Below are positions 1,927-28,934 of a stretch of 64,000 bases of DNA, in pieces. The position numbers and the translations under genes were made by a program. A model generated the notes under the pieces. The model was given only the letters and a program-made list of their open reading frames with translations, did not search any database and was not told the origin of the DNA. The stretch's first letter is position 1, and every line of letters starts with the position of its first letter. The DNA comes from Spirochaetaceae bacterium (lineage in GTDB: Bacteria; Spirochaetota; Spirochaetia; DSM-27196; SKKC01), in NCBI GenBank assembly GCA_007694005.1, contig RECN01000100.1, positions 62,001-126,000 on the forward strand, read 5' to 3'.

Positions 1927-3521
1927 TTCGTGTTCTCCTTGGAGCCGAGATAACTCAGCGCTTCATCCAGTAATATATTTGGATACTCGATGAAGTTTCC
2001 CCGCGTCTGCGGAATGTAGGTATGAACGGGCGCAGGGTTTCCCTCAAGCAACTCTCCGTTCGGTCGTATCGTATGCCCCATCGAGTACATGAACCCGATG
2101 ACCGGTTTTCCGCTTTCTGGAAACCGCAGAACCTCATCCCACTCCCATGTGTTACTGTACCCGCCAGCGGGCATACCAATCATGTAGGCCAGATCATTGT
2201 CGTAGAACATCGCGGCAACCTGATCCAGATGCGATCCTCCGTGAGGGCCGAGCAGGCACACCAGTCTGCCCCGAAAATGGCGCGCTTCGGGTTGCATTAT
2301 TCCGTCCGAGTCTTTTGGCAGATGAGATGACTTGAATGGAACATCCCCGCTGTACTCGTCTCCCCGCTTCAGCGCATCGCGAACATCGGTATCAAGCCAG
2401 TCCAGCAGCCACGTCCCGCCGTCCTCGGCCGTCATTGAAAGCCCGTCCCGTGATCGCTGGTGCATATACTCGATAAACGGCTCAACGATATCGCTGATTC
2501 TGAGATTCCCGAAGGTCGTCCTGAACGGTTTCGGTGACAGGCAGCGCACGGCAGCAGCGCCGAGCGATCCGCCGCGAGCACGTGTAGCGTCGAAAATCAC
2601 ATCAAAGTCAAACAGCTTTCGTTCTTCCGCATAATCGAGAAGAACCTGCATGTTCTCAATCAGCTTATCGTCAAATCGGTACCAGTCAAGCAACAGAACC
2701 GGTACGTCGTCGGTACGCGTATACAAGTCATACGATGAGGTCGATAGTACCTTCTCGAATCCGGGGTATCGAAAGTCTCCGTGCATCTTCCATGTACCGG
2801 TCCATACAAGCGTGGTATCCGGCGCGAGGTACGGGAGGCGCACGCTGTAGCGCTGACCGTTCGCGTTTTCGAGCTCCAGATACAGAGAGTCACGAAAAAA
2901 GTACGGCGGGTATTCGCGTGTTCTCTGAGGAATCATTTTGGAGACCCGCCAGTACAGGTTTTCCTTTGTCGCGTAGCGACTGAAGGGTGCGACCAGTTCC
3001 ATATAGTCGGAAAAAGGAACACCGTTCACCGCAGTCAGGACGTCCCCCGGCGCTACTCCGTAGGCCTGCAACTCTGCGTCCGTTCGACCGCCGATATCAG
3101 CGACAAAGATCGACATGTCCTGCCCTGGCGTGTGATCGACAGAAAACCGTATAGGAGCATGCTCAGCCGGTAACTGAGCAATGCGCGTCGGCTCTGTAAC
3201 ATCGCCGATACCGGACATCTTCAGACCATCAGGGATAAGGTAGGCCCGGACGTGTGGATCCTTGCGGGCGCAGCTCAGTTTGAGCAGACCGTACAAGAGG
3301 GCCTCGTCGGACTGTGCTGATATAATCAGATCACGACACCGCAAAAGCTCCTTATGAACATCTACCCCAAGGTCCCGAAGCTTCCCCGGCACAAAGGCAT
3401 CCCTGCGTAGAATCTTCGCGCAGACATCGTCGAACAGCAAAGCCCTGTCGTGAGCCGTGCTTATACCCTCGGCGTATGGTGCGAGATCACCTGCTGTACC
3501 CGTTTCGTTCGTATCTTTCAT
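1923..3521 (-). CDS. PDZ-domain S41-like (C-terminal processing peptidase related) protein
   Basis: ORF 532 aa; PDZ-like ELQAYGVAPGDVLTAVNGVPFSDY; S41-like C-terminal half; 4-bp overlap with the M28 gene. Confidence 0.6.
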   Translation of the reverse strand: MKDTNETGTAGDLAPYAEGISTAHDRALLFDDVCAKILRRDAFVPGKLRDLGVDVHKELLRCRDLIISAQSDEALLYGLLKLSCARKDPHVRAYLIPDGLKMSGIGDVTEPTRIAQLPAEHAPIRFSVDHTPGQDMSIFVADIGGRTDAELQAYGVAPGDVLTAVNGVPFSDYMELVAPFSRYATKENLYWRVSKMIPQRTREYPPYFFRDSLYLELENANGQRYSVRLPYLAPDTTLVWTGTWKMHGDFRYPGFEKVLSTSSYDLYTRTDDVPVLLLDWYRFDDKLIENMQVLLDYAEERKLFDFDVIFDATRARGGSLGAAAVRCLSPKPFRTTFGNLRISDIVEPFIEYMHQRSRDGLSMTAEDGGTWLLDWLDTDVRDALKRGDEYSGDVPFKSSHLPKDSDGIMQPEARHFRGRLVCLLGPHGGSHLDQVAAMFYDNDLAYMIGMPAGGYSNTWEWDEVLRFPESGKPVIGFMYSMGHTIRPNGELLEGNPAPVHTYIPQTRGNFIEYPNILLDEALSYLGSKENTK

Positions 3522-3541: not shown

Positions 3542-3958
3542 TCAGATCATCGCGAGCAAAGCCGAGACAATGGTCAGTAACCCGGCAAAGACCAGGGGCG
3601 GCCCTATATCCTTTCTAATTTTTGGTTGATGAACGTATTCGTGCAGCGGTGGTACCGTGGAGTCAGCCGGATCGTATTCACGGCGCCGGATTACCTCGAC
3701 CAGTTTCCTGAACCCGTGGGCGGTCGACTCGAAAAACCGCAGCCGCCGAATCAGACGAATGACCGAGATCAGGGACACTCCGAGAGCCGCAAGGAAGAAG
3801 GCGTCGGAAAACGTCCGAGCCGAAATCGATGTACGCGATCGGGCGATTCCAGTGGCAATCGCGATAACCGTTATACCGATACAAAGAAACAGATCGGATC
3901 GTTTCACGGTAGTAGGCCCGCGTACGTTTCCCGACTCATGCTGCGAATGATCTCGCAT
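3542..3958 (-). CDS. Small membrane protein, DUF3899-like
   Basis: ORF 138 aa; TM helices, FSDAFFLAALGVSLISVIRLIRRLRFFESTAHGFRKL pattern; sits between peptidase genes. Confidence 0.4.
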   Translation of the reverse strand: MRDHSQHESGNVRGPTTVKRSDLFLCIGITVIAIATGIARSRTSISARTFSDAFFLAALGVSLISVIRLIRRLRFFESTAHGFRKLVEVIRRREYDPADSTVPPLHEYVHQPKIRKDIGPPLVFAGLLTIVSALLAMI

Positions 3959-4977
3959 ACGATTCGTAACGACGCGTCGTAGTCGTCCCGGTCTACAATG
4001 ACCGAATGCGAGTGATTGTACCGCGACGCAATCCCGATCACGATCGACGGCACGCCGATACCGGTGGACTGAACTGCAGCTGCATCAGTCGTTCCATGAG
4101 AGTAAAACCACTGATACGGAATACCGTGATCCTCGGCGAGCTTCTGCGTCCATTCCCGAAATGCATAATCGGGGCGCATCCGGCTATCAAAAGCACGGAG
4201 AAGAAATCCGTCTCCGAGCCGTCCGAGTTCCTCCGGTTTACGACTGACGTCCCGTGCAGCCGACGAATCAACTGCAATAAAGAGATCCGGCTTCAGGAGT
4301 TCAGCGGCGGCTGAAGCTCCGCGCAGACCGCCCTCTTCCTGTACTGTTGCGCCGGAGTACAGATCGCACGGCAGGGCCTCGCCGGCAAGGGTGCGCAGAA
4401 CGTCCAGTGCCAGGGCACATCCGTAGCGGTTGTCAAAGGCCTTACTTAGAAGACGTTTGCCTCCATTCAGAACTTCAAAAGCCGATTGCGGTGTAACGAA
4501 GGTACCAACGTGTATTCCCCAGTCGTGTATCTGCGAAGCGCTGACCGCACCACAATCGATGACCATATCGTCAATCGACAGCGCCGAAGCTTTTTCGCTT
4601 GGCGACAAAGCCTGCCGAATCAGACGCGTTCCGATGACCCCGGTGAGATCGTCGCTATCGGTGTGAAGTGTCACACGTTGTGACAGCAGGGTCTGGCTCC
4701 ACCATCCACCGAGCGGCTTGAACTGTAGCAGTCCGTCCGGCGACACGCCGGAAATAATGAAACCGACCTCGTCCATGTGGCCTGCAAGCATGACCCGTGG
4801 CGCCTCTGCTTCGGCAGATGCCTTGTGGCCGAATACACCTCCGATGCGGTCGCCCACGACCTCGTCTACGAACGGAGTCATGGTATCGACCATGCATGCC
4901 CGCACCCGGCGCTCGTAGCTGGGAGGCCCTGACAGTTCAGTCAGCTTTTTCAGCATCTGTATCGTTGTATCGTCCAT
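3904..4977 (-). CDS. M42 family metallopeptidase (glutamyl aminopeptidase/endoglucanase-like)
   Basis: ORF track 3904..5049; start trimmed to MDDTTIQMLKKLTELSGPPSYE at 4977; VMLAGHMDEVGFII, TVQEEGGLRGA, HSHSVI motifs. Confidence 0.9.
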   Translation of the reverse strand: MDDTTIQMLKKLTELSGPPSYERRVRACMVDTMTPFVDEVVGDRIGGVFGHKASAEAEAPRVMLAGHMDEVGFIISGVSPDGLLQFKPLGGWWSQTLLSQRVTLHTDSDDLTGVIGTRLIRQALSPSEKASALSIDDMVIDCGAVSASQIHDWGIHVGTFVTPQSAFEVLNGGKRLLSKAFDNRYGCALALDVLRTLAGEALPCDLYSGATVQEEGGLRGASAAAELLKPDLFIAVDSSAARDVSRKPEELGRLGDGFLLRAFDSRMRPDYAFREWTQKLAEDHGIPYQWFYSHGTTDAAAVQSTGIGVPSIVIGIASRYNHSHSVIVDRDDYDASLRIVCEIIRSMSRETYAGLLP

Positions 4978-4987
4978 AGAAACCGTT

Positions 4988-6172
4988 TTACCCTTCCGAT
5001 TCAGTCGTCTGCCAGGAATGCAGGAGAGCCAGAAAACCATCGATATCATCGCTCGAGTTATAAAACCCGAGCGAGACCCTGATCATATCCCGCCGTACCG
5101 TTGTGATCGCGTTGTGTCGCACGAGGTACTCGTGCAGGCTTCGAGCATTCCCGGTTCGGAAACACACGATAGCGCTTCCGAGCGAGGTGTCTCTCGGGCT
5201 TGCGAGCTCAAAACCGGCAGCAGTCAGCCCCTGAGAGAGAAGCTCATTCAGAGAAAGAAGCCGGGCTTCAATGTTCGACATACCAATCTCGTTGAGTCGT
5301 TTCAACGCGCAATCGAGAACGGTCAAACCCAGATAGTTGTAGTTTCCGATCTCGAACTTCTTGGCAGCCTGCGGGATTTCCAGTGCGTAGCTGATCTCTC
5401 CATACTCGATCTGTGCTGCCATCTCCATCCCGGCCCGTGCAACGTACAATGGATGCATTCGATCGCGTATCTCAGGTCGGATGTATAACAGGCCCACGCC
5501 GTGGGGGCACATAAGGGCCTTGTGGCCACTCCCACAGAGTATGTCAGCTCCCATGTAATCGATATCGACGTTCATAGTGCCGACAGACTGCACGCCATCG
5601 ACGACAAGATAGACGCCTCGTTCCCGGCAGTAGCGGGCAAGGTCATGAATGTCGTTCCTGTTCCCCGGTGCGTAGGTCACCGAAGAGACCGCGAGTACCT
5701 TCATGCTTTTCGGCGCGTGCTCCTCAAGCGTCTGGGGAGTTACAAAGCCGTCTGGTGCCGGGATCCAGTGAACATTAACGCCTTTGCTCTTAAGGTTCAG
5801 CCAGCAGTACACGTTATTGGGATGCTCGTGCTCGTTCAGGACGACCGTGTCACCTGCTTCAAGCGGAAGGCAGTTGGCTGCGATGTTGAGTCCTTCAGAG
5901 GTATTTTTCGTGAAGGCAACGTCATCAATCGAACAGTTGATCATATCCGCAAAACGGCTGCGGGCCGAGTTTACGGTTGCAAACCATTGTTCCTTGTCAC
6001 CGCCGGACTTCTGCTGTGAGGCAATATACGCTTCGATCGCCTGAGTGCTGAATACCGGAAGCGGACATTTGTTCGCAAGGTCGAAGTACAGATAGTTTTC
6101 TGTTACCGGAAACTCCGACCGGATTGCATCCCAGTCTATGGGCGTTACCTGAGACCTATCGACCTGTGACAT
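4988..6172 (-). CDS. Class V aminotransferase (cysteine desulfurase / isopenicillin-N epimerase-like)
   Basis: ORF 394 aa; PLP lysine in GADILCGSGHKALMCPHGVGLLYI; VVDGVQSVGTM. Confidence 0.88.
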   Translation of the reverse strand: MSQVDRSQVTPIDWDAIRSEFPVTENYLYFDLANKCPLPVFSTQAIEAYIASQQKSGGDKEQWFATVNSARSRFADMINCSIDDVAFTKNTSEGLNIAANCLPLEAGDTVVLNEHEHPNNVYCWLNLKSKGVNVHWIPAPDGFVTPQTLEEHAPKSMKVLAVSSVTYAPGNRNDIHDLARYCRERGVYLVVDGVQSVGTMNVDIDYMGADILCGSGHKALMCPHGVGLLYIRPEIRDRMHPLYVARAGMEMAAQIEYGEISYALEIPQAAKKFEIGNYNYLGLTVLDCALKRLNEIGMSNIEARLLSLNELLSQGLTAAGFELASPRDTSLGSAIVCFRTGNARSLHEYLVRHNAITTVRRDMIRVSLGFYNSSDDIDGFLALLHSWQTTESEG

Positions 6173-7088
6173 ACTTCTTGAACTCCAGTTCTGAACAATA
6201 GACGGTGTGGCCGCTGCTCACTTCAAAATACCTTGGCGTTTCGCGTGTGTAGTCATGTTGACCGGGATCGTACGGTATCCTTTTACGCAGGCGCTCAAAA
6301 TACGGGTCCGGCTGTGGAATCGCGGAGAGCAGTGATCTCGTGTACGGATGGACCGGGTTTCGATACAGCTCTTCGGAAGGAGCGATTTCGACAAGCTTCC
6401 CGGCGTACATGACTCCGATACGGTCCGAGAAGTACTTCACGATCGAAAGGTTGTGTGCAATAAACAGGACCGTCAGGTTCATGCTTTCTTTCAGTTGATT
6501 GAACAGGTTGATGATTTGAGCCTGAATCGAAACATCCAGAGCGCTGACCGGCTCATCCGCGATGATCAGGGAAGGCTGCGTGATCACCGCACGCGCAATA
6601 CCGATTCTCTGGCGCTGGCCGCCGCTGAACTCATGGGGATACCGGCTCGCGTGATCGCGACTGAGACCGACGAGCTCGAGCATCTTATACACCCGATCAA
6701 GGCGTTCGGCCCGGTCTCGTAATCCCATGACCGTCAGGCCTTCACCGACGATTTCCTCTACGGTCATGCGAGGATTCAGCGACGCCATAGGATCCTGAAA
6801 GATCATCTGCATCTGCGAGGCCAGAAGCTTCTCAGCCTTACCCTGTATCTTGCCTGATATGTCGTGCCCCTCGAATCGCACGGTTCCGCCTGAGGGACGA
6901 TACAGGCGGATGATCGTCCTCCCGGTCGTCGTCTTACCGCAACCCGACTCCCCGACCAGACCGAAGGTCTCACCTTTGCGGACGGCGAAGGATATATCGT
7001 CAACAGCCCGAACCTCGACTTTCCGTTTTCCCCGTCCGGACCGAAAATATGTCTTTAGATTCTGTACTTCGAGAAGTGTGTTACTCAT
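6156..7088 (-). CDS. oppF: Oligopeptide/dipeptide ABC transporter ATP-binding protein (OppF/DppF type)
   Basis: Walker A GESGCGKTT, signature FSGGQRQRIGIARA, Walker B LIIADEPVSALD, C-terminal oligo_HPY domain. Confidence 0.92.
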   Translation of the reverse strand: MSNTLLEVQNLKTYFRSGRGKRKVEVRAVDDISFAVRKGETFGLVGESGCGKTTTGRTIIRLYRPSGGTVRFEGHDISGKIQGKAEKLLASQMQMIFQDPMASLNPRMTVEEIVGEGLTVMGLRDRAERLDRVYKMLELVGLSRDHASRYPHEFSGGQRQRIGIARAVITQPSLIIADEPVSALDVSIQAQIINLFNQLKESMNLTVLFIAHNLSIVKYFSDRIGVMYAGKLVEIAPSEELYRNPVHPYTRSLLSAIPQPDPYFERLRKRIPYDPGQHDYTRETPRYFEVSSGHTVYCSELEFKKYVTGR

Positions 7089-8125
7089 GATTTTTCGCGC
7101 CTCTTTAGCATACGGCCGATTCTCTCGGAGAGAACCAATGGCCGTTCAACCGCCGGTGCCGAGGGATGTAGAAGCCAGGTCGACGCCGAGTGTGTATCTG
7201 AGAGCCGGAATTCCGGTGGCTCTTTCTGCCGGTCAATCTTCATGGCGTATGTGTTCCGTGGGGCAAACGCGTCCCCTGTCGGCGGATGTAACATATTCGG
7301 TGGCGTACCCGGGATCGCGAAGAGCTCTTCTCGCGTCTCAAGGTCTGGCATTGAAGAAAGGAGCGCCCAGGTGTATGGATGCCGAGCCTCGTAGAAGATC
7401 TCGTCGACCGTCCCGGTTTCGACTATCCTGCCTGCGTACATGACCGCGACACGATCCGCGGTGTTCGCCACGACACCAAGGTCGTGCGTGATAAATATCA
7501 CCGACAGATTGCGTTTCTGTTTTAACGCTGCGATCAACTCAAGAATCTGCGCCTGGACCGTCACATCGAGGGCTGTGGTAGGTTCGTCGCAGATCAGAAT
7601 CTCCGGGTCGCTTGCGAGTGCGATTGCTATTACGATCCTCTGCCGCATCCCGCCGGAAAACTGAAACGGATACTGATCGTAGCGGTGTTCGGGTTCCGGT
7701 ATCGCCACCAGACGCATAAGCTCGATCGCCTGATCGTGCGCGGCTTTCTTCTCGAGCCCCTTGGACAAACGCAAGGCTTCAGAGATCTGCTTTCCTATCT
7801 TCATAATGGGGTTCAGGGCCGAAAGCGGGTCCTGGAAGACAAGCGAAATTAGCTTCCCTCTGATTTTGTGAAAGTCAGCTTCGGTCACCTTCGTGAGGTC
7901 CTGACCTCGATACATTATGGATCCAGCCGTTATCGTTGCGTTCCCGGTTAACACCCCGAGGATAGTTCGAATCGTCACCGACTTTCCGGAACCGGACTCA
8001 CCTACGATCGAAAGCGTCTCACCTTCGTGAAGTTTGAAGCTGATTCCCCGCACCGCCTGAACGGATCCTCCGTATGTTTTAAATGAGACGCTGAGATTTT
8101 CAACTTCTAGTATTATGTCTGACAT
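7085..8125 (-). CDS. oppD: Oligopeptide/dipeptide ABC transporter ATP-binding protein (OppD/DppD type)
   Basis: Walker A GESGSGKSV, signature FSGGMRQRIVIAIAL, Walker B ILICDEPTTALDVT; 4-bp overlap with oppF. Confidence 0.92.
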   Translation of the reverse strand: MSDIILEVENLSVSFKTYGGSVQAVRGISFKLHEGETLSIVGESGSGKSVTIRTILGVLTGNATITAGSIMYRGQDLTKVTEADFHKIRGKLISLVFQDPLSALNPIMKIGKQISEALRLSKGLEKKAAHDQAIELMRLVAIPEPEHRYDQYPFQFSGGMRQRIVIAIALASDPEILICDEPTTALDVTVQAQILELIAALKQKRNLSVIFITHDLGVVANTADRVAVMYAGRIVETGTVDEIFYEARHPYTWALLSSMPDLETREELFAIPGTPPNMLHPPTGDAFAPRNTYAMKIDRQKEPPEFRLSDTHSASTWLLHPSAPAVERPLVLSERIGRMLKRREKS

Positions 8126-8133: not shown

Positions 8134-9282
8134 CTATTTCACCCCTCTCATGGTCGGATCAAGCGCATCGCGCAACCCGTTCGCAAAGAGGTTGAACGAA
8201 ATCATCAGGAGCGATATGACGATGGCAGGGAAGAGTGACTGGTACGGGTAGTTCAGAAGCACCGCCTGCGCATCAGACAAGAGCACGCCGATCGTCGGTT
8301 CAGGAGCCTGTAATCCGAGCCCGATATAGGCAAGAAAGGACTCGGTGAAGATCGCGAGCGGAACGGCGAACATGGTTCGTGTGATTATCGGTCCTACGGA
8401 GTTCGGGAAGATGTGCCTGAACATTATGACCGAGTCGCGAACTCCCATAGTCCTCGCCGCCAGGACAAACTCCCGGAGTTTGAATCGATAGAACTGTGCC
8501 CGAACGAGTCTCGCGGTACCGATCCACCCGCTGACTACGAGCGACATGATAATGGAAAATAATCCCGTCCCAAAGAAGAGGATAAATAGAGTCACGATGA
8601 CCACGCGAGGAAAGGCTTCTATGACCTCACAGATCCTCATAAGGATCATGTCGGCGGTGCCACCGTAGTATCCTGCGGCTGCACCGTACACGATACCGAT
8701 CAGGAGGTTGGTCAGGACCGAAATAATGGCAATGGCCAGAGAGACTCGTGATCCGCGCCACAAACGTGTCCAGTAGTCCCGACCAAGATAATCGGTGCCA
8801 AACCAGAATGAATGCTCGACGCCGCGATACGCGTAGTAGTCAACGAGCACGTCTGCTATCTCCACGTTGTTCACCGTTAATCTGTTCCGAACCCGGATGA
8901 TCGACCCGGCCGGGTATCGCTCTTCATCCTCGAAGAACTCAACACGACGCCGTTCAAGTTGGCGGTTTCCAGTCGCAATGCCGATCGGTCGCAACCATTC
9001 TATGCGGGGTGGCATGTTACGAAGATCCGGATTCTGCTCGTTGAAACCGAAGTCATTCATTTCCGGTCCAAATATCGCCATAAAGAATATGATCAGAATG
9101 ATCCAGGAGGCGGCGACCGACGCCCGATTCTCCTTGAACCGGTTAAACGCGTCCTGGAAGTATCCGACTGCCGGGTCCTTGAAGTCCTCGTCGGCGAGCA
9201 CGTCGTCTGCGTGAATGAACTCGAAATCATCGGCACTATACTGCTCGTCGTACACGTCAGGACTGTTTTTGTCGCTACTCAT
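8134..9282 (-). CDS. oppC: Oligopeptide ABC transporter permease (OppC/DppC type)
   Basis: ORF track 8134..9339; start trimmed to MSSDKNSPDVYDEQ; permease TM pattern with HIFPNSVGPIITR. Confidence 0.9.
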   Translation of the reverse strand: MSSDKNSPDVYDEQYSADDFEFIHADDVLADEDFKDPAVGYFQDAFNRFKENRASVAASWIILIIFFMAIFGPEMNDFGFNEQNPDLRNMPPRIEWLRPIGIATGNRQLERRRVEFFEDEERYPAGSIIRVRNRLTVNNVEIADVLVDYYAYRGVEHSFWFGTDYLGRDYWTRLWRGSRVSLAIAIISVLTNLLIGIVYGAAAGYYGGTADMILMRICEVIEAFPRVVIVTLFILFFGTGLFSIIMSLVVSGWIGTARLVRAQFYRFKLREFVLAARTMGVRDSVIMFRHIFPNSVGPIITRTMFAVPLAIFTESFLAYIGLGLQAPEPTIGVLLSDAQAVLLNYPYQSLFPAIVISLLMISFNLFANGLRDALDPTMRGVK

Positions 9283-10225
9283 TTTTTGAGCCTCCAACCC
9301 GAACCCGGGGATCAATAAGACCGTAGGACAGGTCAACAACCAGAATCGTCAGAAGCGAAACCAGTGAATAGAAGACCAGTATGGCGACCGTAAGCGGATG
9401 ATCGTTTGCATTCAGTGAGTTCACCAGCAACCCGCCGACCCCCCCGATCGCAAAGATGCGCTCGATAACCAGCGAACCGGTCAGTATGCTCGTGAACATA
9501 GGTATAATGATATTTGCCAGCGGGAGAAGAGAGTTTCGCATCGCGTGTCGCACCGTCGCCTGAAATACGGTCAGCCCTTTTGTGCGCGCAAGCAGCATAA
9601 AATCCGAGCTGATGGTCTCAATGAGCTCACCGCGCAGATATCGGGTAACCCGAGCGATAGGCCCGAGAGCGAGGGCTGTGATCGGAAGAATCATCGACCA
9701 CCAGTACGGTGTGCCTCCGGGAGACGTCGAATACACGATGGGGAACCATCCAAAACGGAACGCGAGCGTATATTGCAGCAGCGTCGCAAATACAAACGAG
9801 GGAACGGACACGAACAGAACCACCGCGAACGAGATCGCGTGGTCGGTCCGACGGTTCTGAAAGAGTGCAGCAAGTATACCAGCGAGTATTCCTATCGGAA
9901 GAGAAATAAACAGCGACAGGAGATTCAAAAGAAGGCTCACCGGAATTCGGCTGTAGAGAACTTCCCACACCGGAACACTGACTCGTATCGCGATTGAAGT
10001 GCCCCAGTCACCCCGTGCAATGTTCTGCACGAAATACCAGTACTGAACGATCATAGGTTCGTTCAGTTGATAGCGGGCCTCCATTGTCTCCAACAGACGC
10101 GGTGGCAGATCGGTATCTTCATATATGGAACCGGGCATCAGTCGAATCACGAGAAATGCGATCGTCAGAATGACCCATAGCGTCAACAAGAGGGCAAACA
10201 GCCTTTGCACAGTATACTTGATCAA
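9275..10225 (-). CDS. oppB: Oligopeptide ABC transporter permease (OppB/DppB type)
   Basis: ORF 316 aa; MIKYTVQRLFALLLTLWVILTIAFLVIRLMPG...LARTKGLTVFQATVRHAMRNSLLPL. Confidence 0.93.
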   Translation of the reverse strand: MIKYTVQRLFALLLTLWVILTIAFLVIRLMPGSIYEDTDLPPRLLETMEARYQLNEPMIVQYWYFVQNIARGDWGTSIAIRVSVPVWEVLYSRIPVSLLLNLLSLFISLPIGILAGILAALFQNRRTDHAISFAVVLFVSVPSFVFATLLQYTLAFRFGWFPIVYSTSPGGTPYWWSMILPITALALGPIARVTRYLRGELIETISSDFMLLARTKGLTVFQATVRHAMRNSLLPLANIIIPMFTSILTGSLVIERIFAIGGVGGLLVNSLNANDHPLTVAILVFYSLVSLLTILVVDLSYGLIDPRVRVGGSKNE

Positions 10226-10359: not shown

Positions 10360-12132
10360 TCAGTCGACGATACGCGCCCACTTCCAACCGTAGCGAAGGG
10401 CTATCGACCAGCCATCACTCATGAACTCAACACGATCTGATGCAAGACCAAACCCAAGTCCCTGTGTGACAGGTACGAATGAGGCGTCTTCAAGCATGAC
10501 CCGTTCGGCCTCTGCTATAAGTTCGAGACGGCCCTGAAGATCATCAATTGGCATTGCAAGAACCGTTTCGTACAGGCTGTCGTACTCGTCCGAAAAGTAC
10601 GGGCCTTTTCGCCTCGCCGTGCCTGAGTAGTAGTGAGCGAGTGCCGAGACAGGATTGAAATCGTCGTGTCCGGTACCGGTCCAGCCCAGGTCGAACGCAT
10701 TATTGTTATTCGGATACTCGCGAAGGCGCGCTGCCAGTTGTGACGACGGAACTGCCTGCAGGGAAATCTGCAACCGTCCACCGAACACCTGGTTCCAGTG
10801 CTGTTGCAGGTACTCACTGACCGCACGGCGTGCTTCTACACCTTCGTGGTAGGCAAGCTGTAGCGAAAGTGTATCAAGTCCCGCGTCGGCCATGGCCGCA
10901 TCGAACAGCTCGCGTGCGAGATCGGGATCGTAACCCAGGTTTGGTGTGAGGATCGCACGGGCTTCCGGGGTATTACGATACAAGGTGCCGTCGTCAACAT
11001 TCATGACGTGTGTCGTCGGAATAATGTAGTTAGCAGGTATTGTCGATGAGACCGAGGCGCTCGTTGCACGGTCAGTCGCAAAGAACAGGGCCTGCCGGAA
11101 TCGCACATCCTGCAGGATCGGTTTATCGGTGCTGAGCAGATTGATTACAATTCGCTGTACAGACCGCGCAGGAACCTCGATGATCCGTGGATCTTCGCGG
11201 AATCGCTGAAAATCGGCATCCGAGAGTTCGACGAAGTCGACTTCGCCACGCTCGAACAGCTGCATGACCGTCCCCGACTCCGCAATGACCCGGTTATTGA
11301 CGCCCGCGAGCCAGATCCGGTCGGCGAACACGTAGTTCGGATTCTTGATCGCCGTATACTCGGAACCCTGACGCCAGGAGTCCACCATGAACGGTCCACT
11401 TGAGACCATGCGGTCGACATCGGTACCGTAATTGGTCGTGCTTCGGTCTGCGTTCATGCCTGCCTCGTAGAGAGGTGGGTAAACAAGCGAAACCGAGAGA
11501 TTCGAGAAGAAGTTCATGAGCATGAACTCGGTGACCGGGAGAATCAGCGTAAACTCGAAGGTTGAGTCGTCGATAAGATCGATGCCGACGTCATCCCACG
11601 AGACATCACCAACGACGTACTCAAGCGCGTTTACAACCTGGACCTGGGATCCGTGAAACGCGTTCGCCCGGTGGTTCAGGAGGACTGGGTCCATGACCAT
11701 CTGCCAGGAATACAGAAAGTCCTCGGCGGTTATGGGCTCGCCATTTGCCCACAAAGCATCGTCCCTGACGGTGATCCTCCACACCGTTCCCTCGTCATCG
11801 ACGGGAACCGGCGGAGCGGCAGCGAGTTCGGACAGGATCTCGAATCCCACTCCACCCGGGCCAGGCGCGAAGCGATACAGTTTTCCCGTAATCAGGTTGA
11901 GAAAGTCCGCCGTATCAGTAGCCGCCTGCTGGTGCGGATTCAGAGTCTCAAGCGGGCGCCCGACAGTCAGTCTCAACATACCGGAACCGGTCTCCGATGG
12001 TGCATCGCCAACCGAAGCCTGAGCCGGTGCCGCTTCCTGTCCACCACCACCCCACGCGTGGCCAAGAAACAGCGTACCAAACAGTACGGAAAGAGCAAGA
12101 ATCCGAGCGGACTTGCGAATATATAACAACAT
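10360..12132 (-). CDS. oppA: Peptide ABC transporter substrate-binding protein (OppA, SBP family 5)
   Basis: ORF 590 aa; signal peptide; LRLTVGRPLETLNPHQQAATDTADFLNLITGKLY; GGAGG RBS upstream. Confidence 0.92.
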   Translation of the reverse strand: MLLYIRKSARILALSVLFGTLFLGHAWGGGGQEAAPAQASVGDAPSETGSGMLRLTVGRPLETLNPHQQAATDTADFLNLITGKLYRFAPGPGGVGFEILSELAAAPPVPVDDEGTVWRITVRDDALWANGEPITAEDFLYSWQMVMDPVLLNHRANAFHGSQVQVVNALEYVVGDVSWDDVGIDLIDDSTFEFTLILPVTEFMLMNFFSNLSVSLVYPPLYEAGMNADRSTTNYGTDVDRMVSSGPFMVDSWRQGSEYTAIKNPNYVFADRIWLAGVNNRVIAESGTVMQLFERGEVDFVELSDADFQRFREDPRIIEVPARSVQRIVINLLSTDKPILQDVRFRQALFFATDRATSASVSSTIPANYIIPTTHVMNVDDGTLYRNTPEARAILTPNLGYDPDLARELFDAAMADAGLDTLSLQLAYHEGVEARRAVSEYLQQHWNQVFGGRLQISLQAVPSSQLAARLREYPNNNNAFDLGWTGTGHDDFNPVSALAHYYSGTARRKGPYFSDEYDSLYETVLAMPIDDLQGRLELIAEAERVMLEDASFVPVTQGLGFGLASDRVEFMSDGWSIALRYGWKWARIVD

Positions 12133-12182
12133 GTGAAGCCTCCATTAGAGAAATATAGTTCTCTACTTATGTAAACTTGATT

Positions 12183-12199
12183 AGCAATTTTTGTGCCAA
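12183..12199 (-). promoter_or_regulatory. Sigma-54 (-24/-12) promoter for the opp-peptidase operon
   Basis: Minus strand reads TTGGCAC-AAAAA-TTGCT, matching consensus TGGCAC-N5-TTGCW; about 50 nt upstream of the oppA ATG. Confidence 0.8.
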
Positions 12200-12221
12200 A
12201 AATAGGCTACACACTAAGTCT

Positions 12222-12246
12222 ATTAAAGATAACGAATTAAAGATAA
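12222..12246 (-). repeat. 11-bp direct repeat pair upstream of the sigma-54 promoter
   Basis: + strand ATTAAAGATAA at 12222-12232 and 12236-12246 (period 14). Confidence 0.6.
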
Positions 12247-12274
12247 ACGTAAGTTTTCGAAACAAATTAATGCT

Positions 12275-12314
12275 ACATGTTCGTATTTTTCACTAGTTAT
12301 AAACACGAATATGT
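12275..12314. promoter_or_regulatory. Candidate enhancer (UAS) inverted repeat
   Basis: ACATGTTCGT (12275-12284) ... ACGAATATGT (12305-12314): 9/10 inverted match, centred roughly 120 bp upstream of the predicted sigma-54 TSS. Confidence 0.4.
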
Positions 12315-12391
12315 AGGGTCATTTACCACACGCCGCTGCCAGAATCCCCCGCGTGGCCTCGCACCCGAACATAGTGTAGAATGGTCTCACC

Positions 12392-13393
12392 ATGAAAAAC
12401 CGTGAAATCCGTCTGAAGCAGAACCCTGTCGGCACTCCCAAAGAGAGCGACTTCGAGCTCGTTGAAACCGAGCTTTCCAGTCCTTCCGAAGGTGAGGTGC
12501 TCGTTCGCAACCACTACATGTCGGTGGACCCGTATATGCGCGGGCGCATTGCGAAAGGGGCTTCGTACGCGGACAACTGGAAACCGGGCGAGGCGATGCG
12601 TGGCGGTTGTGTCGGCGAGGTCGTCGAGTCCAGGGCCGAGAGTCTTCGCCCGGGCGACTTCGTAGTCGGGGAAAAGGGATGGCGGGACTACTATGTGTCC
12701 CGCGCCGAAAAGCTCCGCGTTGTCGACGCAGAGGTAGCACCCGTGTCGACCCATCTCGGCGTGCTTGGGATGCCGGGGATGACCGCGTACGTCGGGCTGT
12801 TGAAACTCGCTGCTGCCCGCTCGGGGCAGACCGTCTTTGTCTCCGCGGCGGCGGGGGCGGTAGGGTCGCTCGTGTGCCAGCTCGCACGGGACGCCGGCTG
12901 CCGGGTTATCGGAAGCGCAGGGTCGCCTCAAAAGGTGGACTGGCTAACCGGGCGTGCCGGGGTCGATGTCGCGTTGAACTACCGCGAGAGCAGTAATCTC
13001 GCCGCCGACCTGAAAGAAGCCGCCCCGGACGGGATCGACATTTACTTCGACAACGTCGGTACGGATCATCTGGAAGCGGCGCTTGAGAACATGGCGATGC
13101 ACGGTCAGATCATCTGCTGCGGAATGATCTCGTCATACAACGCGACCGAAGCACCCGCAGCGCCCCGGAACCTGTCGCACATCGTCTGGAAGCGACTGCG
13201 TCTGCAAGGATTTATCGTCAGCGACCACTGGGAGCACTACGATGACTTCATTTCTGACGTCGCTCCCCGGGTTCGCGACGGCAGTATCGCCTACGAAGAA
13301 ACGGTGGTCGACGGACTGGAGAACGCACCGCGCGCGTTCATCAACCTGTTCAGTGGAAGCAATCTCGGAAAAATGGTCGTGAAGATAGTCTGA
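12392..13393 (+). CDS. Zinc-independent NADP-dependent MDR oxidoreductase (CurA / alkenal reductase type)
   Basis: ORF 333 aa; MSVDPYMRGRI, VFVSAAAGAVGSLVCQLAR, DNVGTDHLEAAL. Confidence 0.9.
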   Translation: MKNREIRLKQNPVGTPKESDFELVETELSSPSEGEVLVRNHYMSVDPYMRGRIAKGASYADNWKPGEAMRGGCVGEVVESRAESLRPGDFVVGEKGWRDYYVSRAEKLRVVDAEVAPVSTHLGVLGMPGMTAYVGLLKLAAARSGQTVFVSAAAGAVGSLVCQLARDAGCRVIGSAGSPQKVDWLTGRAGVDVALNYRESSNLAADLKEAAPDGIDIYFDNVGTDHLEAALENMAMHGQIICCGMISSYNATEAPAAPRNLSHIVWKRLRLQGFIVSDHWEHYDDFISDVAPRVRDGSIAYEETVVDGLENAPRAFINLFSGSNLGKMVVKIV

Positions 13394-13402: not shown

Positions 13403-14182
13403 TTACTTTTCCAGGACGTTCGGGAGCAGCCGATCGAACTCGTCTTTGACGACATGGTAGCATTCGCAGACCCGTTCCTCGAGTCCCGGCCGGTCGATCA
13501 CGGTGATCTTCCCACGGTGGTACTCGATGAGTCCGGCGTCTTGAAGCTTGCCGGCCGCCTCCGTGACCCCTTCTCGGCGCACCCCGAGCATATTGGCAAT
13601 GAGTTCCTGGGTCATACTCAGTTTGTTTGACGGGAGTCTGTCGAGACTCAGGAGTAGCCAGCGGCACAGTTGCTGGTCTATCGAATGGTGACGGTTACAC
13701 ACGGCAGTCTGAGCCATCTGGGTCAGCATGGCGAGGGTATACCGAAGCAGCAGATGGTGCACCGGACCGGAACGCTTGAACTCCTGTGTGAGAATGCTGG
13801 CCTTGAGGCGCAACGCATCCCCTTCGCTCTGTATCACTGCCCGGTTCGGCATGCTTTCGCCGCCCATAAACAGCGCGATCCCGACGATGCCTTCGTAGCC
13901 GACAACAGCTATCTCGGCGGAGGCACCGTCTTCCATGACGTACAGAAGCGAGACGATCGCCGTCGTCGGAAAGTAGACATAATCGAGCTGGCCACCGGAT
14001 TCGTAGAGAACCTCACCAAGCGTCAGGTGTACCGGTTCAAGAAAGGGTCCCAGGCGTCCGTAGTCGTCCTCCGAGAGCACCTGTAGCAGGCGGTTTAGAG
14101 GAGGGTCAGAACTGTCTGCGGGATGTTCTGTTTTAGGACTCATAAGCACATTATCGCAAAAACACTCACGCTTTGGAAACAC
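13403..14182 (-). CDS. Crp/Fnr-family transcriptional regulator
   Basis: ORF 259 aa; N-terminal cNMP-binding-like domain and C-terminal HTH SMTQELIANMLGVRREGVTEAAGKLQDAGLIEY. Confidence 0.85.
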   Translation of the reverse strand: MFPKRECFCDNVLMSPKTEHPADSSDPPLNRLLQVLSEDDYGRLGPFLEPVHLTLGEVLYESGGQLDYVYFPTTAIVSLLYVMEDGASAEIAVVGYEGIVGIALFMGGESMPNRAVIQSEGDALRLKASILTQEFKRSGPVHHLLLRYTLAMLTQMAQTAVCNRHHSIDQQLCRWLLLSLDRLPSNKLSMTQELIANMLGVRREGVTEAAGKLQDAGLIEYHRGKITVIDRPGLEERVCECYHVVKDEFDRLLPNVLEK

Positions 14183-14476: not shown

Positions 14477-17400
14477 TTACGCTGTCGTTAGTACCTCCGT
14501 CGGTACGCTGCCACACATAGTCACGAGAACGTGGTGCTCCGACTCCGAGCGCTCGAGCTGTATCACACCGTCCGGTACCGGCTGTCCGTCCAACTCGACT
14601 CGCTCGACGCCACGATCACCGTGGTCGGGGTTTTCCACGCGCACGTGGTAGACAGCCGGGCCGTGGCGGTAGCGCAGCGTGAAACCGTCCCACCACGCCG
14701 GTATGACCGGAGCCAGGCGCATTTCTTCGCCGCGGATCTGAAGGCCGAGCACCTCCTCGACCCACGCGCGGTACATCCATGCGGCCGACCCGGTGTACCA
14801 CGACCACCCGCCGCGGCCGACGCGGCCCGGCAGGCGATAGACGTCTGCTGCAATTGCATAGGGTTCAACCGCGTACCGACTAACCGCCTCGGGGTCCCTG
14901 GTCTGCTCTATAGGGTTCAGCAGACGCAGCATTGTCGCGGCCCGCTCGCCGTCTCCACCGCGCGCCATGGCCATGGCGAACCAGAGCGCGGCGTGCGTGT
15001 ACTGCCCGCCGTTTTCACGCACACCCGGCGGGTATCCCCGGATATAGCCCGGCGACGGATCGCTCCTGTCAAAAGGTGGGTCAAAGAGCAGCACCAGCGC
15101 TTCGTCCGGGCGGACCAGATGCTCCCACGCCGATTGAACCGCCGTCTGCGTGCGCGCCTCATTTCCCGCTCCGCTGAGTCGGGCCCAGGATTGCGGCAGC
15201 GAATCGATTTTCGCTTCGGCGTTCCCGGCCGATCCGAGCGGAGCGCCGCTGTCGAAGAAGGCTCGCAGGTACCATGAGCCGTCCCACGCCGAGGCTTCTA
15301 TGCGACCGATAAGCTCAGTTCTCTGCAGGTCGAATGACCGACTGAGCTCTCCATCACCCTGCAGATCGCTCAGCTCCTGCATTCCTCGGAGGACGTCGAC
15401 CAGGAACCAGGCGAGCCAGACACTTTCGCCGCTTCCTTCGGCTCCGACAAGGTTCATGCCGTCGTTCCAGTCTCCGGTTCCCATGAGCGGCAGGCCGTGC
15501 GGACCGGCGGTGAGGCCGCGCTCGACGGCGCGACGGCAGTGTTCGAAGACGGTGCCGCGTTCAGTGCCGATCTGAGGTACAGCAAACACCTCGTGCTCCC
15601 CTGCTCCCAGTGGAGGTGCATTGAGGAACGGAACCTCTTCGGCGAGGACACTCGTGTCGCCGCTGATCCGCACGTAATGCGCAACCACAAAGGGTAGCCA
15701 GAGCAGATCATCAGAGATGCGCGACCTGATCCCGGCGCCTCCCGGCGGATGCCACCAGTGCTGAACGTCGCCTTCGGCAAATTGTCGCGCGGCGGCGAGC
15801 AGGATCTGTTCGCGGGCCAGTGCGGGTCGGGCGGTGGCAAAGGCCATGGAGTCCTGCAGCTGATCGCGGAATCCGAAGGCTCCGCCGGACTGATACGTGG
15901 CCGACCTGCCCCACATGCGGCAACTAAGGCTCTGATAGAGCAGCCAGCGGTTCAGGAGAATGTTTGCCGCGAGCTCGGGAGTCTGGACTTCAACGCTACC
16001 GAGCAGGGTGTCCCACCACGCCTGAGTGCGAGCGAGCGAGATCTCGAAGGCTCCGGCGCTGCTATACGCACGAATGAGTTCGCGTGCCTGCTCAAGCGAG
16101 TCGGTCTGCCCGAGCATGCAGACGACCTCTGCGGTCGCGCCCGGGGCCAGGTGTACGGATGTCTGCAGCGCTGCGCAGGGGTCGATACCCGCTCCGACGC
16201 GCGAGGAAAGCGAGACGCGGTCCATGGCCGCAGGTTGCGCCGCACTCCGATTACGTCCCAGAAACGCGGTGCGGTCGCCGCTGTAGGAGCTCGCTTCCGG
16301 TGTAATAGCAGCGAACGCGAGGCGACCGGGGTAATCCGGGTGGTAGCGATTGCGCGCGAGCAGCGCGGAGGACCGTTCATCCCACGACGTGGATACGTGC
16401 ATGTACGAAGACTCACGGTTCTCACCGAGAGTCCACTCCTGGTAGCAGGTTACCGAGAGCGTGCGCTCCCGCGCGGTCGCGTTCGTAAGCCGCAGCCGCT
16501 GCAGCTTGACCGGTTCACCACCCGTGTCTGACATCGGGACGAACACGGTAAGTTCCTGCTCTATGCCGTGACTGTTGTGCTCGAACACCGAATAACCCGC
16601 GCCGTGCCGTGCACGGTAGGCGCTTCGTTCCCGAATTGGCGAAGCAGTTGGCGACCAGTACGCGCCGGTATCCTCATCCCGTATGTAGATGACTTCAGAC
16701 ACCGGATCGACGACCGGATCGTTAGACCATTGAGTAAGACGGTTTCGCTGACTGTTGCCATACCACGTGAATCCGGCGCCGGTTTCCCCGACGAGTGTTC
16801 CGAAACTCGGGTTGGCGATAACGTTCACCCAGGGCGCAGGAGTATGTGATCCATCACCAAGATAGATCGCGTACTCGCGTCCACCGTCGGTAAACCCGCC
16901 CAGGCCGTTGAAGTAATGAAGCTCCATGAACCGCAGCTCAGCGGATGCATCAACAACAGCGCGCTTGCGAAGCGACTTTTGGGGTAACTCGGGAACATCA
17001 ACAGCCATCCCGAGCTGCTGGGGCAGGGAGCCGCGCGCGGCCACCAGTACGACCCGTGCGACGGCGGTCATCAGGACAAGGTCTTCGCGCGGAATCTGAT
17101 CCGCACTGACCAGGAAGGCTCCGTGGGGGTGGGCGCGCACAAGATCCTCGAGATGGTTGCGCAGCGGGTTCTCGTAGCCACTCGCCTCTTCGTTGACAAT
17201 AACAAGATCGGTCACAAATCCCTGCATGCGCCAGTAGGAGTGCGCCCGAAGCATCTGACGGACAAGACCGACATCACGGGTGTCCGCAATGCTGATCATG
17301 AGTATCGGCGCGTCACCCGAAATACCGTACGGCCACAAGCCGGATTGCCCTTTACCGTTCTCAACGATTCTCGGCCCCGGCGCGCGAAGGCGCGCATTGG

Positions 17401-20400
17401 GAATGAGCAGATGACTCGCGATTTGCTGGAAACGGCGTGCCTCATCGGGTTGCACCCGAAGCGCACGAAGCTCGATCTGTGCCGCTGCCCACGCGAAATC
17501 CATTGCACGCTCAATAGCATGGGGATCGTCGTAGGTGTCGAGCAGATCGATTACACGCTGCCGGGAGTCCCCCGCGGCGACAATCAGCGAAAGCTGCTGC
17601 TGCTCACCGGGCTCGAGCACTATGTCGGCGCGAAGGCTGAAGATCGGGTCGAGCACGTAGCCCTGCCCGCCTTCCGGCTCGTTGACGGCTCCTGCCGGGT
17701 TCTCGAGGCTTCGTCCACGACCGATGAATGCTGCTCTGTCGGTCTGGAACCTCAAGGTCAATGGCTCTTCCTGCGTGCCGGTGCCACGCGTGAGTCTGTG
17801 GGCCGCGAACACGGGCGCCTCGTCGTCTCGACGCTTGCGCCGATACGCGAGAAGCGCATGATGTTCGGGAAGCGCTTCGGTCTGTATGAACATCTTGTTG
17901 AAGGCCGGATGCTGCAGGTCCTGCCGGTGCGGTGCGAGCGAGAGCTCGATATAGCTCGTGAGTTCGAGACGACGGCGGTGCGGCGAGCGGTTAACCAGCG
18001 TGATCCGCCTGATCTCTACATCATCTTCCGGAGAGACCACAATCTCGGTCTTGACGTCTATGTCGTCGTCGCACCGTCGGATAACCGCGCGGTCGAGGGT
18101 AAAGTCAGCGCTATAGGAATCCACCGTTCCTGTGGTGGGATAGTAGGTATTCGACCACAGATGGTCGGCATCGGGTTCGTGAATGTAGCAGAACAGACCG
18201 CCGGAATCGCGCGTGGCGTCGGCTCTCCATCGGTTCAACTCGATGTCACCCCACTGGCTGTATCCCCCGCCGGAGTTTGTGACCATGATCGAATAGCGCC
18301 CGTTTCCAAGAAGCTGCGTCTTTGACGTTGCGGTGTTTGGTGTCTCAAACCTGCTGACCGATGGTGCTACCTCACCTATGCTCTCGACTCCGAGTCCCTG
18401 CGCCCGCGTTGCCGAGTACCGGGGCAGACCGGTAGGGATGCTTTCGTGCAGCAGCGGCTCGAAGGCACGCACCCGCGGATCGCGATGGAAATGGTCCTGC
18501 ACCACGCCGTGGTGCAGGAAGTTGTTCAGCGATAGAAAGCCCATACCCTGATGATGCGACATGTAGGTCCGTACGAGGACGCCCCGCTTCCCGTCGCGGC
18601 TTGCCTGGCGACCGAAGTCGATCGCGTCGTAGTAGCCGTAATCCGAAAGCATCCCCAGTGCATCCAGGCGACGCAGATTTTTAAGCGTCGGTTTTACAGC
18701 AACGCCCAGTGCCAGCAGGGACGCATAGGGTGCGACGACCAGTTCCCGGTCCAGTCCGCGTTTCAGCCCCAGCCGGGGGATGCCGAAGGCCTTGTACTGA
18801 TAGGTTTTGTTGATGTCGAGGTCTGCGAATGCAGACTCGGAGATACCCCAGGGTACACGCCGCTTTCTTCCGTAGTCGATCTGTATTGCGACCGCCTCGC
18901 TGACGGCCTTCTCAAGTAGCGAGTTGTCGTAGGACCGCAGCAGAAGCTGCGGCATGAGGTACTCGAACATGGTCCCGCTCCAGCTCAGCAGCACACGGCG
19001 CGCGCCTATCGCATCGTGGGGTCGCCCCATGGCGAACCAGTGTTCGACCGGCGCTTCACCACGCGCGACGGCGACGAAACTTCCGATCCGCGCCTCGCTC
19101 GCGAGCAGATCGTAGTAGGCGTTATCGGGGCGGTGATCGCTTACGTTGAAGCCGATGCGGAAGAGTCGACACCGCGGGTCGTAGAGGAAGCGCATGTTGA
19201 TGGACTCACCGAGTCTCTGTACGTCGTCGATAAGCCGCCGGGCAGAGGCAATTTTCTCGCCTGCCAGCCACCGGGCGTCGTGGAAAGCCTGAGTGATACG
19301 GTCTATCCACGGTATCAGCGCTGTGTCGGCCACGCCAGGATGGCTGCGCTTCTGAACCAACACACGAATCATGGCGACATCTCCGGCGGCAAGACTCAGG
19401 AGAGACGGCGCACGCTTCAGCTGCCGACCAATGAGCTCGACCGCTTCACTGCCCAGAGGAGCAAGTTCGTCCACGCCCTTCTCCGCTGCGATCTCCATCC
19501 ATCGGAGATAGCGGTCGCAGGTTTCAAGCCACGCAGCAGTCTGGCTATGCACCTGTCCGAGCCAGTAGGCAGCGGCCGGACCCCCGACGGCCGTCGCGTC
19601 GGCGGCCGGACCCCCGGCCTCCGCTTCGTCGCCACGCAGATCATCGATCATCGGTCCGGTCATCTCATGGACCTTGCGAAGCGCCCAGATCGCGTCCGCC
19701 CTGTCGGCGAACCGGCTTCCAAGCTCTTCGGTCACGGCGTCAAGCGCCTCGCGGAACTGTCGACTCGTTTGACCGCTTCCCGACAAGGTCTCCTCGAGAA
19801 CGCCAAGCGTATCGAGAAGTCCTTCAAAAGCTGCGCGACCGAGCACGGGGTCGGTAATCATCGCCTCGAGCGCCTGCTCGAGCGCCCACAGCGAACCGAC
19901 CAGATTACCGCTGTCAACCGTAGACACGTAGCGAGGCTCAAGGGGTTTCAGCGTCTGTATGTCGTACCAGTTCAGCAGATGCCCCTCGAAGCGTTCGAGC
20001 TCGGCGACCGACCTCATGGACTTCGACAGAAGGTCGATTACCTGATCACCGGTCAGATACCCGAAGTCACGCGCTCCAGCCGCGCTGAGAAACCACAGCC
20101 CGATGTTCGTCGGGCTTGTGCGCATCGCAAGCTCATTCTGGTGCGACAGCTGATAGTTATCAGGCGGCAGCCACGATGTCTCGCTGGAAACGAACTCAGC
20201 GTAGTAGCGCCACGTTCGTCGCGCGATAGCCCGCAGGTAACGCTCATCGCCCGCGGCGAGCGCACTGTTACGCTTCGCAGGCGGACGACGTCGCGTCAGC
20301 GCCCACGCGGTGAACGGGGATGCGATCCACACCAGTAGCCAGGGCGCGGCGATCAGCGCGTGTACCGGCGACCAGACATACAGCGCCCACCCGGCCAACC

Positions 20401-23400
20401 CGCTTGCCATGCCTGAGAGCACGACCGTGAGTCCTAAGACCACCGGCGGGCGCAGGGCGACCCGTGAAGTTGAACGACTGACCGTCCATTCCAGCAGCTT
20501 TCTGCGGGAAATCAGCCGGCGATACCACACCCTCACAATCGCGTCGACGGCAAGCGCGCTCTGGTGGGGGATGAGCGACGCCTCAACGAGTGTGCGCAGC
20601 ATATCGTGACCCAGGGTCTGAATCGAAAACGTTCTGAGACCCCCGCGTGTTGTGGCCATCGTCAGGGGAGGCATGACCGTGTGGAAGAGCAACTGCGAGG
20701 CGACGACCAGAGATCCGATGACCGCGGTGGCCGGCGTCCCCATCCACGCGACTGCCAGCAGCGCAAGACTCGCCACGGGAATGAGACTGCGACGAAGGTT
20801 GTCCGCGATCTTCCATCGGTTAAACCCCGAAAGGGGATTCACGGCACGATCACCACCGGAACCGGGGACTCGCGAGCGGAGCCAGGCGGCGATCTGCCAG
20901 TCCCCGCGTATCCAGCGATGCTGCCGCACCGTGTAGGTCAGGTAGTCCTGAGGAAACTCGTCGAGCAGTTCGATGTCACTCGCGAGTCCGACCCGCACGT
21001 GCGCCCCTTCGATCAGGTCGTGACTCAGCAGGCGCTCCTCGGGGAAGCGGCCCGAGAGCACACGGCTGAAGGCCCGTACATCGTAGATGCCCTTCCCGTG
21101 GTAGGACCCCTCACCGCTGAGGTCGTGGTTGAGGTCTGAGACGACCCTCGTGTACGGATCGATGCCCACGGCAAGCGAAAACAGCCGACTGAACGTAGAG
21201 CCGGTGGTGCTCGGCAGCGAGGGACTCACCCGGGGTTGTATGATGGTGTAGGTCCCGGCAGCAATCCGACCCTCGTCGTCGAGGCGGGGTCGGTTCAGCG
21301 GGTGCGCGAGCGTCTCTACCATCCTGCGGGCCGTTCCCGACGGCAGCTGCGTATCGCTGTCCAGGGTGATGATGAAGCGCACCGCACGCAGTCGTTCCGG
21401 GTCGCCGAGGTAGACGAGCTTCCCGGCGTCGTGTGGGCGTGTTCCGTCGATAAGGCGGTTCAGCTCTTCGAGCTTCCCGCGCTTGCGCTCCCAGCCGATG
21501 AAGGCACGCTCTGATTCACTCCAGACGCGCTGCCGGTGGAGCAGCAGAAAACGATCGTTCCCGTATCGTTCGTTCAGTCCCGCAAGCCCGGCGATTGCGC
21601 GCTGCAGCAGAGGATCATCATCGCTCCTGTGCTGCGTGTCGCAGTCGGTGTAGTCGGTAAACAGGCTGTAGAGCAGATTCTCATCGGGATTCGCGAGAAA
21701 CCGTATTTCGATACTGCTCACCTGCGCATCGATGGTACGGGTGTTCGTCAGAAGCATGGGCACAACAACCAGCGTCCGGTACTCGTCGGGTATTCCGGTC
21801 TCCCGGTAGTCCATCTTGGCCAGCGCCCGGGGAGGCAGCAGCCTCATGATCAGGTAGTTCATGATCTCCACCGAAAGCTGGCTCAGCGGCAGTACGGCAA
21901 TGAGAGAGAACACCACGCGCACCGTCGCAGGCAGCCCCGCCAGTCCAAACGCGGCGATGAGCGCAGTGAACAGCGCCAGGAACACACCGATTCCCGTCAG
22001 GTAGACCCCGGTGTGATGCCGGGTGACCCGGCGGCGGAAGCGCTCTCGAAACGGCTCGTCGGTGCCGATCCGATGCGACAGCTCCCTTTTTTCGGTGCCG
22101 ATCAGATACGCCCCGATGTGCGTCAGCTCGACGCCGGCTCCCCGGACCACGGCTTCCGACGCCAGGGAAACACAGGCCTTCGCGACGTACACTTCCGTAC
22201 GGCCCGACCGGCCGGCACTCTGCTCGATGACCCGCCGATAGCGGTCACGCGTCGCGAAGTCCATCTCGGAATATATCCCCGCGGGATCGAGCCGCAGGGC
22301 TTTGTCCACGAGGCTGACCTGCTCAAAGAGATCCCGCCAGTCCAGCTGCACGAGTTCCCGCAGACTGCTGAACGCGTTACCGACCGCAATCTGCTCCTTC
22401 GCCTGCCTGTCCTGTTCGTCTGCGTTCAGCTCTTCGATGGGTCGGTGAAACATCCGCTCAAGCCAGCTGCGCACCAGTGTCGCTGATGCTTCTTCACCGT
22501 AGAGGTGATCGAGCAGCTGAAACGCGAAGTGTGCACTTAAAGCGCTGTGCCTGTCGCTGAGCTCGGCCATCATGGTAAACAGCTGGTTCGGATCGCGATG
22601 GCCGGCGCTGATCAGACGGTTCGCCCAGAAGTCGGCAATCTCACGGTCGCGCAGCTCGGTCAGACCGCGGGATGCGAGGACCACGATGCCCTCGACAAGC
22701 GCGAGTCGGAGCATCTGCGGGATCGCCCACAGCTCCGCGGTGGTCAGCGTCTGAACCGACTGGTAGGCGTCGAGAAAGGAAACGATGGTGTCACGGTCAA
22801 GCCGCATACCGGTATCCGAAACGAGCTGCCGGGCAAGACCGTATATTCGGGGCAGACCGCGATGGGGCCCGTCCTCCAGGGAAGGAAGTTCGCGATAGAA
22901 GTGCCGGGACAGATTCTGTTGCACGTCGCGGATACTGCTGTCGATGACGTACTGGTTGTCGAGTATCCATTCGACAAGCGGAGTCGCCCGCTGTCCGAGC
23001 GCGACCGCCGCGGACAGATCCGCGCACACCGGCCCTATCCATCGGTGCATGCGCTTCAGCCGGTCAAGCAGTACGGTGTCCTTTGACGATTTGAGGGTCA
23101 CGCGATTCGTGGTCGCCAGATGCACAGCCCGCTCCTGTATCTGCATCGGAGACGGAGGCGAAACCATGATCCCGAGATCATCGACCACCCCTGCCCGCTT
23201 CGGATTTCGAACGAAGATGAGCGGATTTTCGCTACTCTCGCGTAACAGGTCCGCCGGATGCCGCAATTGCGCAATGGGAGCTTCAAGGATAAGGGCGGAT
23301 TCGTCGGTCACAAGCCGCCGCGAGTACTCTGCGCGCAGACCTCGCCTGAGACCGTGCCGAAGGAAGGAACGTCGGATCGCTACACGGCCATCCGAATCTT

Positions 23401-23506: not shown

Positions 23507-23641
23507 AGTCATCCTTGCGCTGTGGAACACAGTATCAATCAACCCGTGCTCGGTCTGTGCGGCAGCGCACAGACCCGGAAAAGATCGGACCGCTACGGTA
23601 TGTTACCCTTAGCCTTCAGGAGTGTTCTAGGAACTGTGTAT

Positions 23642-28810: not shown

Positions 28811-28934
28811 GCAAAGGATTGTAGCACGGTCGCTGTGCGCACCTCGGCACAAGCCATAATTCTCTCCATCGTCTTTGGACTATCGGTTCGAAAATACTTC
28901 TCAATACCTCGTCCAGCCGGTACACTTCTTGCCA

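Follow-up and report, generated by a model that had tools for sequence, protein, structure and literature searches.

The peptide import and peptidase gene cluster

The window, that is, the whole 64-kb stretch of DNA that was analysed, carries on its minus strand ten adjacent genes predicted to form one operon for the import and digestion of peptides. It begins with oppA (10360–12132), identified by a profile match and by its orthologues as encoding a peptide-binding protein (SBP_bac_5), and continues with the permease genes oppB (9275–10225) and oppC (8134–9339; the listed start overlaps oppB and the true start is probably later) and the ATPase genes oppD (7085–8125) and oppF (6156–7088). The Opp importer set of a binding protein, two permeases and two ATPases is complete in this one cluster. 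Then follow the genes for a class-V PLP enzyme (Aminotran_5; 4988–6172), whose nearest models are of cysteine desulfurase types, all below cut-off, for an M42 aminopeptidase (3904–5049), for a small DUF3899 protein (3542–3958), for a weakly S41/PDZ-like protein of 532 aa (1923–3521) and, last in the predicted operon, for an M28 peptidase with a PA domain (499–1926). The ORFs overlap or lie less than 25 nt apart, except for a gap of 134 nt after oppA. A ferric-reductase-like gene lies next beyond the M28 gene and probably belongs to a different unit.

The gene content given in the sequence-only reading, OppABCDF with a PLP aminotransferase and three peptidase-like proteins, holds, the PLP enzyme being of class V; the DUF3899 gene was absent from it. 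Beside the M42 and M28 enzymes, the third peptidase-like member is the 532-aa protein, which falls below every Pfam cut-off and has weak PDZ matches. Peptidase_S41 was matched by two of the three aligned members of its family (best E 2.5e-4), and because of these S41/PDZ matches the description 'three peptidase-like proteins' is a fair one. Searches of PDB sequences with this protein found nothing, and a structure model was set aside as too poor (pLDDT 49). The aligned members of the family have invariant PHGGSHLDQ and MPAGGYSNTWEW blocks.

Elsewhere in the window, a Crp/Fnr-type regulator gene (13403–14182, minus) lies two genes 5' of oppA on the same strand. A single ORF of 3,021 aa (14477–23542, minus) encodes a cyclic-glucan-synthase-like protein with GH94 and glucoamylase domains, and a 902-aa protein (28875–31583, plus) combines a class III nucleotide cyclase domain with an NB-ARC/NACHT-like ATPase and TPR repeats.

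The sigma-54 box upstream of oppA

The minus strand upstream of oppA carries TTGGCACAAAAATTGCT (12199–12183), an exact match to the -24/-12 consensus of sigma-54 promoters, with GG at -25/-24, GC at -13/-12 and the correct spacing; the predicted +1 is near 12172. The oppA ATG (12132) lies 50 nt from the 3' end of the motif, just as had been claimed from the sequence, and is preceded by an SD-like GGAGG (12139–12143, minus), recognised in the sequence. Within the 64-kb window this is the only zero-mismatch match to TGGCACN5TTGCW. None of 1,500 shuffles of the oppA intergenic region contained an equally good box, and no sigma-70-like site was listed in the oppA upstream region (12133–12391).

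A genome-wide scan for the motif, which the sequence-only reading had proposed, was performed with YTGGCACN5TTGCW in the source genome (G000; 3.9 Mb, 204 contigs) and gave nine exact matches, mostly just before start codons. As the reversed control gave seven, the number of matches is by itself weak evidence for the motif; we dropped it and used position and conservation instead. Seven of the nine sites are correctly oriented and ∼14–50 nt 5' of plausible start codons (judged by eye), and the remaining two lie farther upstream (∼140 and ∼225 nt before the start), so that all nine appear to precede genes. Among the control matches, on the other hand, five of the seven fall inside ORFs of 196–971 aa. 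The position of the exact matches, unlike their number, is strong evidence. One of the boxes (C117:2526–2542; L028) precedes a gene for an RpoD/RpoS-like sigma-70 factor. Another match (C196:5073–5089; L030), ∼140 nt 5' of where the BREX gene brxA likely starts, may be due to chance; it falls within a long brxA ORF, in the N-terminal portion, and the BrxA domain of this ORF begins only at residue 111.

The rpoN gene, whose absence from the genome had been named as evidence against RpoN control, is present in G000 and complete, with the activator-interacting, core-binding and DNA-binding domains. The suggested search for bacterial enhancer-binding proteins (bEBPs) yielded nine strong Sigma54_activat domains; a GAFTGA-type loop is present in eight of the ORFs concerned.

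Among the 46 genomes of the order that were searched for OppA orthologues (cut-off E ≤ 1e-70), three were positive, namely the source genome, a second genome of the same genus (G002) and one from another family (G040). The latter two are MAGs labelled Spirochaetaceae, and their OppA proteins are 88% and 76% identical, respectively, over the aligned proteins. Gene order in G040 is the same as in the source genome through the M28 gene. The distribution of the operon in the order is patchy, and conservation therefore rests on three promoters, two of which come from one genus. The intergenic DNA 5' of oppA is strongly diverged among the three genomes and the upstream neighbours differ (a GH43 gene in G040); within this diverged DNA, a box is found at oppA as TTGGCACGATTATTGTT in G002 and TTGGCACGAATGCTGCT in G040. 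The G002 box is off consensus at -12 (TTGTT) and its leader is 141 nt long. The same gene set, with an OppA of 70% identity, was also observed in a MAG labelled Firmicutes (CALNBW010000166.1), where the S41-like and M28 genes come before oppA; gene transfer or a binning error is possible in this case. With the M28 gene immediately 5' of oppA and no box at oppA, this locus is uninformative on the promoter and was not used as evidence.

The complete rpoN, the activator domains and the box kept at two oppA orthologues support RpoN control of the cluster, as first read from the sequence. On this evidence, we take 12183–12199 to be a genuine sigma-54 promoter of the ten-gene operon, which would be transcribed as one unit.

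A two-site element shared by oppA and amtB

Upstream of the box lies a feature unmentioned in the sequence-only reading, a 44-bp dyad (12273–12316) ∼122 bp before the predicted start. It consists of two 12-bp palindromes of the form TAC-N6-GTA, with exactly 30 bp, or about three helical turns, between their centres. The distal half, TACATATTCGTG (12304–12315, minus), is centred at about -137 and has one mismatch to TAC-N6-GTA; the proximal half, TACATGTTCGTA (12274–12285, plus), is centred at about -107. These positions fall within the ∼80–150 bp before the start where enhancers of sigma-54 promoters are expected. The same 44-bp arrangement (hereafter, the doublet) is found at oppA of G002 and G040, with the 30-bp spacing identical in the three genomes and, in G040, a third palindrome copy at the same spacing. 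A doublet as good arose in one of 2,000 shuffles for G002 and in none of 2,000 for G040, and box and doublet together were matched in none of 1,500 shuffles in each genome. The CTACATRTTCGTRT arm was also tried as a genome-wide motif and was not clearly enriched (54 versus 44); the element is informative as the TAC-N6-GTA doublet.

We searched the three whole genomes for the opp-derived doublet with at most one mismatch, against a reversed control. It occurs at 10, 6 and 8 places in G000, G002 and G040, compared with 3, 2 and 0 in the control. One orthologous bEBP gene (identity 97% and 75%) is flanked by doublets in all three genomes. In the source genome this gene is C198:8392–9996 and the doublets are at C198:8257–8328 and 10030–10071. 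Its product has one GAF domain, a Sigma54_activat domain with a GAFTGA-type loop and a Fis-type HTH (HTH_8), and scores 578.3 bits against the NCBIfam NifA model TIGR01817 (cut-off 528.85). The next gene is amtB, which in G000 is followed by a PII gene. In the interval between the bEBP gene and amtB, the doublet is followed by a box, TTGGCACGATTCATGCT in G000, TTGGCACGTTTCGTGCT in G002 and TTGGCACGCTCTGTGCA in G040.

This bEBP gene is present in 43 of the 46 genomes. The region 3' of it was examined by tblastn at 30 loci of the order (doublet with at most one mismatch; box score at least 10.5). A doublet was found at 24 of the 30 loci, compared with none in the control, a -24/-12 box at 27 and amtB at 29. 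Because the pattern was derived from opp, the doublet count is an independent test. Other bEBPs are also conserved in all three genomes; no doublet with at most one mismatch was found beside the other strong bEBP domains on their contigs.

The doublet also occurs in other settings. At glnA of G040 it is accompanied by a -24/-12 box; at glnA of G000 (C166; L158) and G002 (C31; L159) a 2-mismatch doublet is found with no box, together with a conserved CCTACATTGATGTAG element. Directly 5' of the NifA-type gene itself (C198:10030–10071 in G000 and C146:2231–2272 in G002) the doublet stands without a -24/-12 box, an arrangement that suggests repression or autoregulation. Doublets with one mismatch at C69:16098–16139 of G000 (L149, 7099–7140) and C433:9454–9495 of G040 (L154) lie just 3' of sigma-70-like hexamers (judged by eye) and precede a second SBP_bac_5 peptide-type ABC operon; here, too, the position suggests repression or autoregulation. 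Weak doublets at C5 and at C10/C76, the latter close to tRNA-like genes and a TAXI-type binding protein, were set aside, as no convincing -24/-12 box goes with them.

Probable nitrogen control of the cluster and its relation to known circuits

As the opp set has the same kind of promoter and the same two-site element as amtB, nitrogen shortage very probably turns it on, and the NifA-type bEBP encoded beside amtB (C198:8392–9996) is very probably the activator. The recurrence of the opp doublet after this bEBP gene in 24 of 30 loci, 29 of which have amtB there, means that the nitrogen reading of the opp promoter, now with a named candidate activator, is strongly supported. The control had been proposed to be 'nitrogen- or amino-acid-responsive'. 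The nitrogen half of this proposal gains from the doublet common to oppA and to amtB by the NifA-family gene, as well as to glnA in G040, while the amino-acid half received no separate support. Taken together, we are highly confident that the opp operon has a sigma-54 promoter activated by this bEBP under nitrogen limitation, a picture in which binding, nitrogen signal, single transcript and substrate are all predicted. Points that speak against it are the off-consensus G002 box with its 141-nt leader, the presence of the operon in just three of 46 genomes, the mismatch in the distal half-site of G000, the missing -24/-12 box at glnA of G000 and the conservation of further bEBPs.

The proposed sequence of events is as follows. 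Low nitrogen would activate the NifA-type protein, perhaps by way of its GAF domain and the PII protein encoded after amtB; in other bacteria, the GAF domain of NifA binds 2-oxoglutarate and PII controls NifA (PMC9866876). Once bound to both TAC-N6-GTA sites (centres at about -137 and -107), the activator would reach the sigma-54 polymerase at 12183–12199 through a DNA loop, upon which the promoter would open. Peptides would then be imported by OppABCDF, amino acids would be released from them by the M42, M28 and S41-like peptidases, and the PLP enzyme may process these amino acids.

A different activator, for instance a response regulator of the NtrC/NtrX type, could act at the same sigma-54 promoter in answer to a signal other than nitrogen. 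The genome offers candidates, with nine strong bEBP domains, several of which have orthologues in all three genomes; however, throughout the order the doublet known from oppA recurs next to amtB and the NifA-type gene, and the remaining strong bEBP domains have no adjoining doublet, and we consider this alternative improbable. We give still less weight to the idea that the dyad acts for the oxidoreductase gene on the opposite strand (12392–13393, plus; divergent), as an operator or 5'-UTR hairpin, and has nothing to do with opp. It does lie 76 nt 5' of the oxidoreductase ATG, and a hairpin can form from it (z -4.0), but G002 and G040 have the doublet at oppA despite a different upstream neighbour, the doublet also stands before amtB in unrelated surroundings, and the half-sites are kept as separate palindromes and not as pairing arms, as in G002. 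That the box is a chance match and a sigma-70 promoter drives opp is likewise very improbable: exact matches are no commoner than in the control and the oppA intergenic region is AT-rich, but the matches lie before genes, the box is kept in two relatives, and the shuffles and the lack of a listed sigma-70-like site in 12133–12391 argue against it.

Activation of the opp operon by the NifA-type bEBP would be a circuit of a known type, namely nitrogen-controlled peptide scavenging through sigma-54. The opp and dpp genes reportedly belong to the scavenging regulon of enteric NtrC. That protein is a phosphorylated response regulator, whereas the candidate here is a GAF-type activator, and here importer and peptidase genes form a single cluster. 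In enteric bacteria, NtrC with sigma-54 turns on the uptake of nitrogen compounds under nitrogen limitation, according to Zimmer et al. (2000), cited in PMC10936423. The EbpA–RpoN system of Leptospira, which controls amtB and two lipoprotein genes and is needed under nitrogen limitation (review PMC12655853), resembles the present case in its spirochaete host, sigma-54, GAF-type activator and amtB target. No peptide operon, however, is among the targets named in that review, and EbpA has two GAF domains and is FhlA-like by description, whereas the C198 protein has one and fits the NifA model. The Rrp2–RpoN–RpoS pathway of Borrelia (PMC4014564) is also a spirochaete sigma-54 regulon, and the RpoD/RpoS-like sigma gene with an exact box on C117 is reminiscent of it; this is a separate branch, unlinked to opp.

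For the NifA-like protein Nlh1 of Aquifex, a role in nitrogen assimilation and not in fixation has been suggested (PMC9866876). The C198 protein shares with NifA and Nlh1 the order GAF–AAA+–Fis and lies above the NCBIfam NifA cut-off, but its predicted targets are amtB, opp and, in G040, glnA. The classical NifA site is TGT-N10-ACA, in contrast to TAC-N6-GTA here. These targets suggest that the NifA-family protein is here a general nitrogen regulator, and that the scavenging of whole peptides is part of the nitrogen-starvation response. Within the limited literature searched, what looks new is the occurrence in a spirochaete, the activator of NifA type, the sequence of the enhancer and the importer–peptidase coupling. 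What began as one promoter match now predicts a nitrogen regulon throughout an order of spirochaetes, most of them uncultured. The prediction names an activator and a specific DNA code, two TAC-N6-GTA sites spaced 30 bp from centre to centre, for which cultivable relatives can be screened and in which it can be put to the test.

More tentatively, the NifA-type protein may switch genes in both directions in response to nitrogen, with a single enhancer code. Together with sigma-54 it would turn on opp-peptidase, amtB and, in some species, glnA from upstream sites; from sites just 3' of sigma-70-like promoters it would repress the second peptide-type ABC operon (C69 and G040 C433); and it would act on its own gene. 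We think this rather unlikely as a whole; if true, nitrogen status would decide which peptide importer is made.
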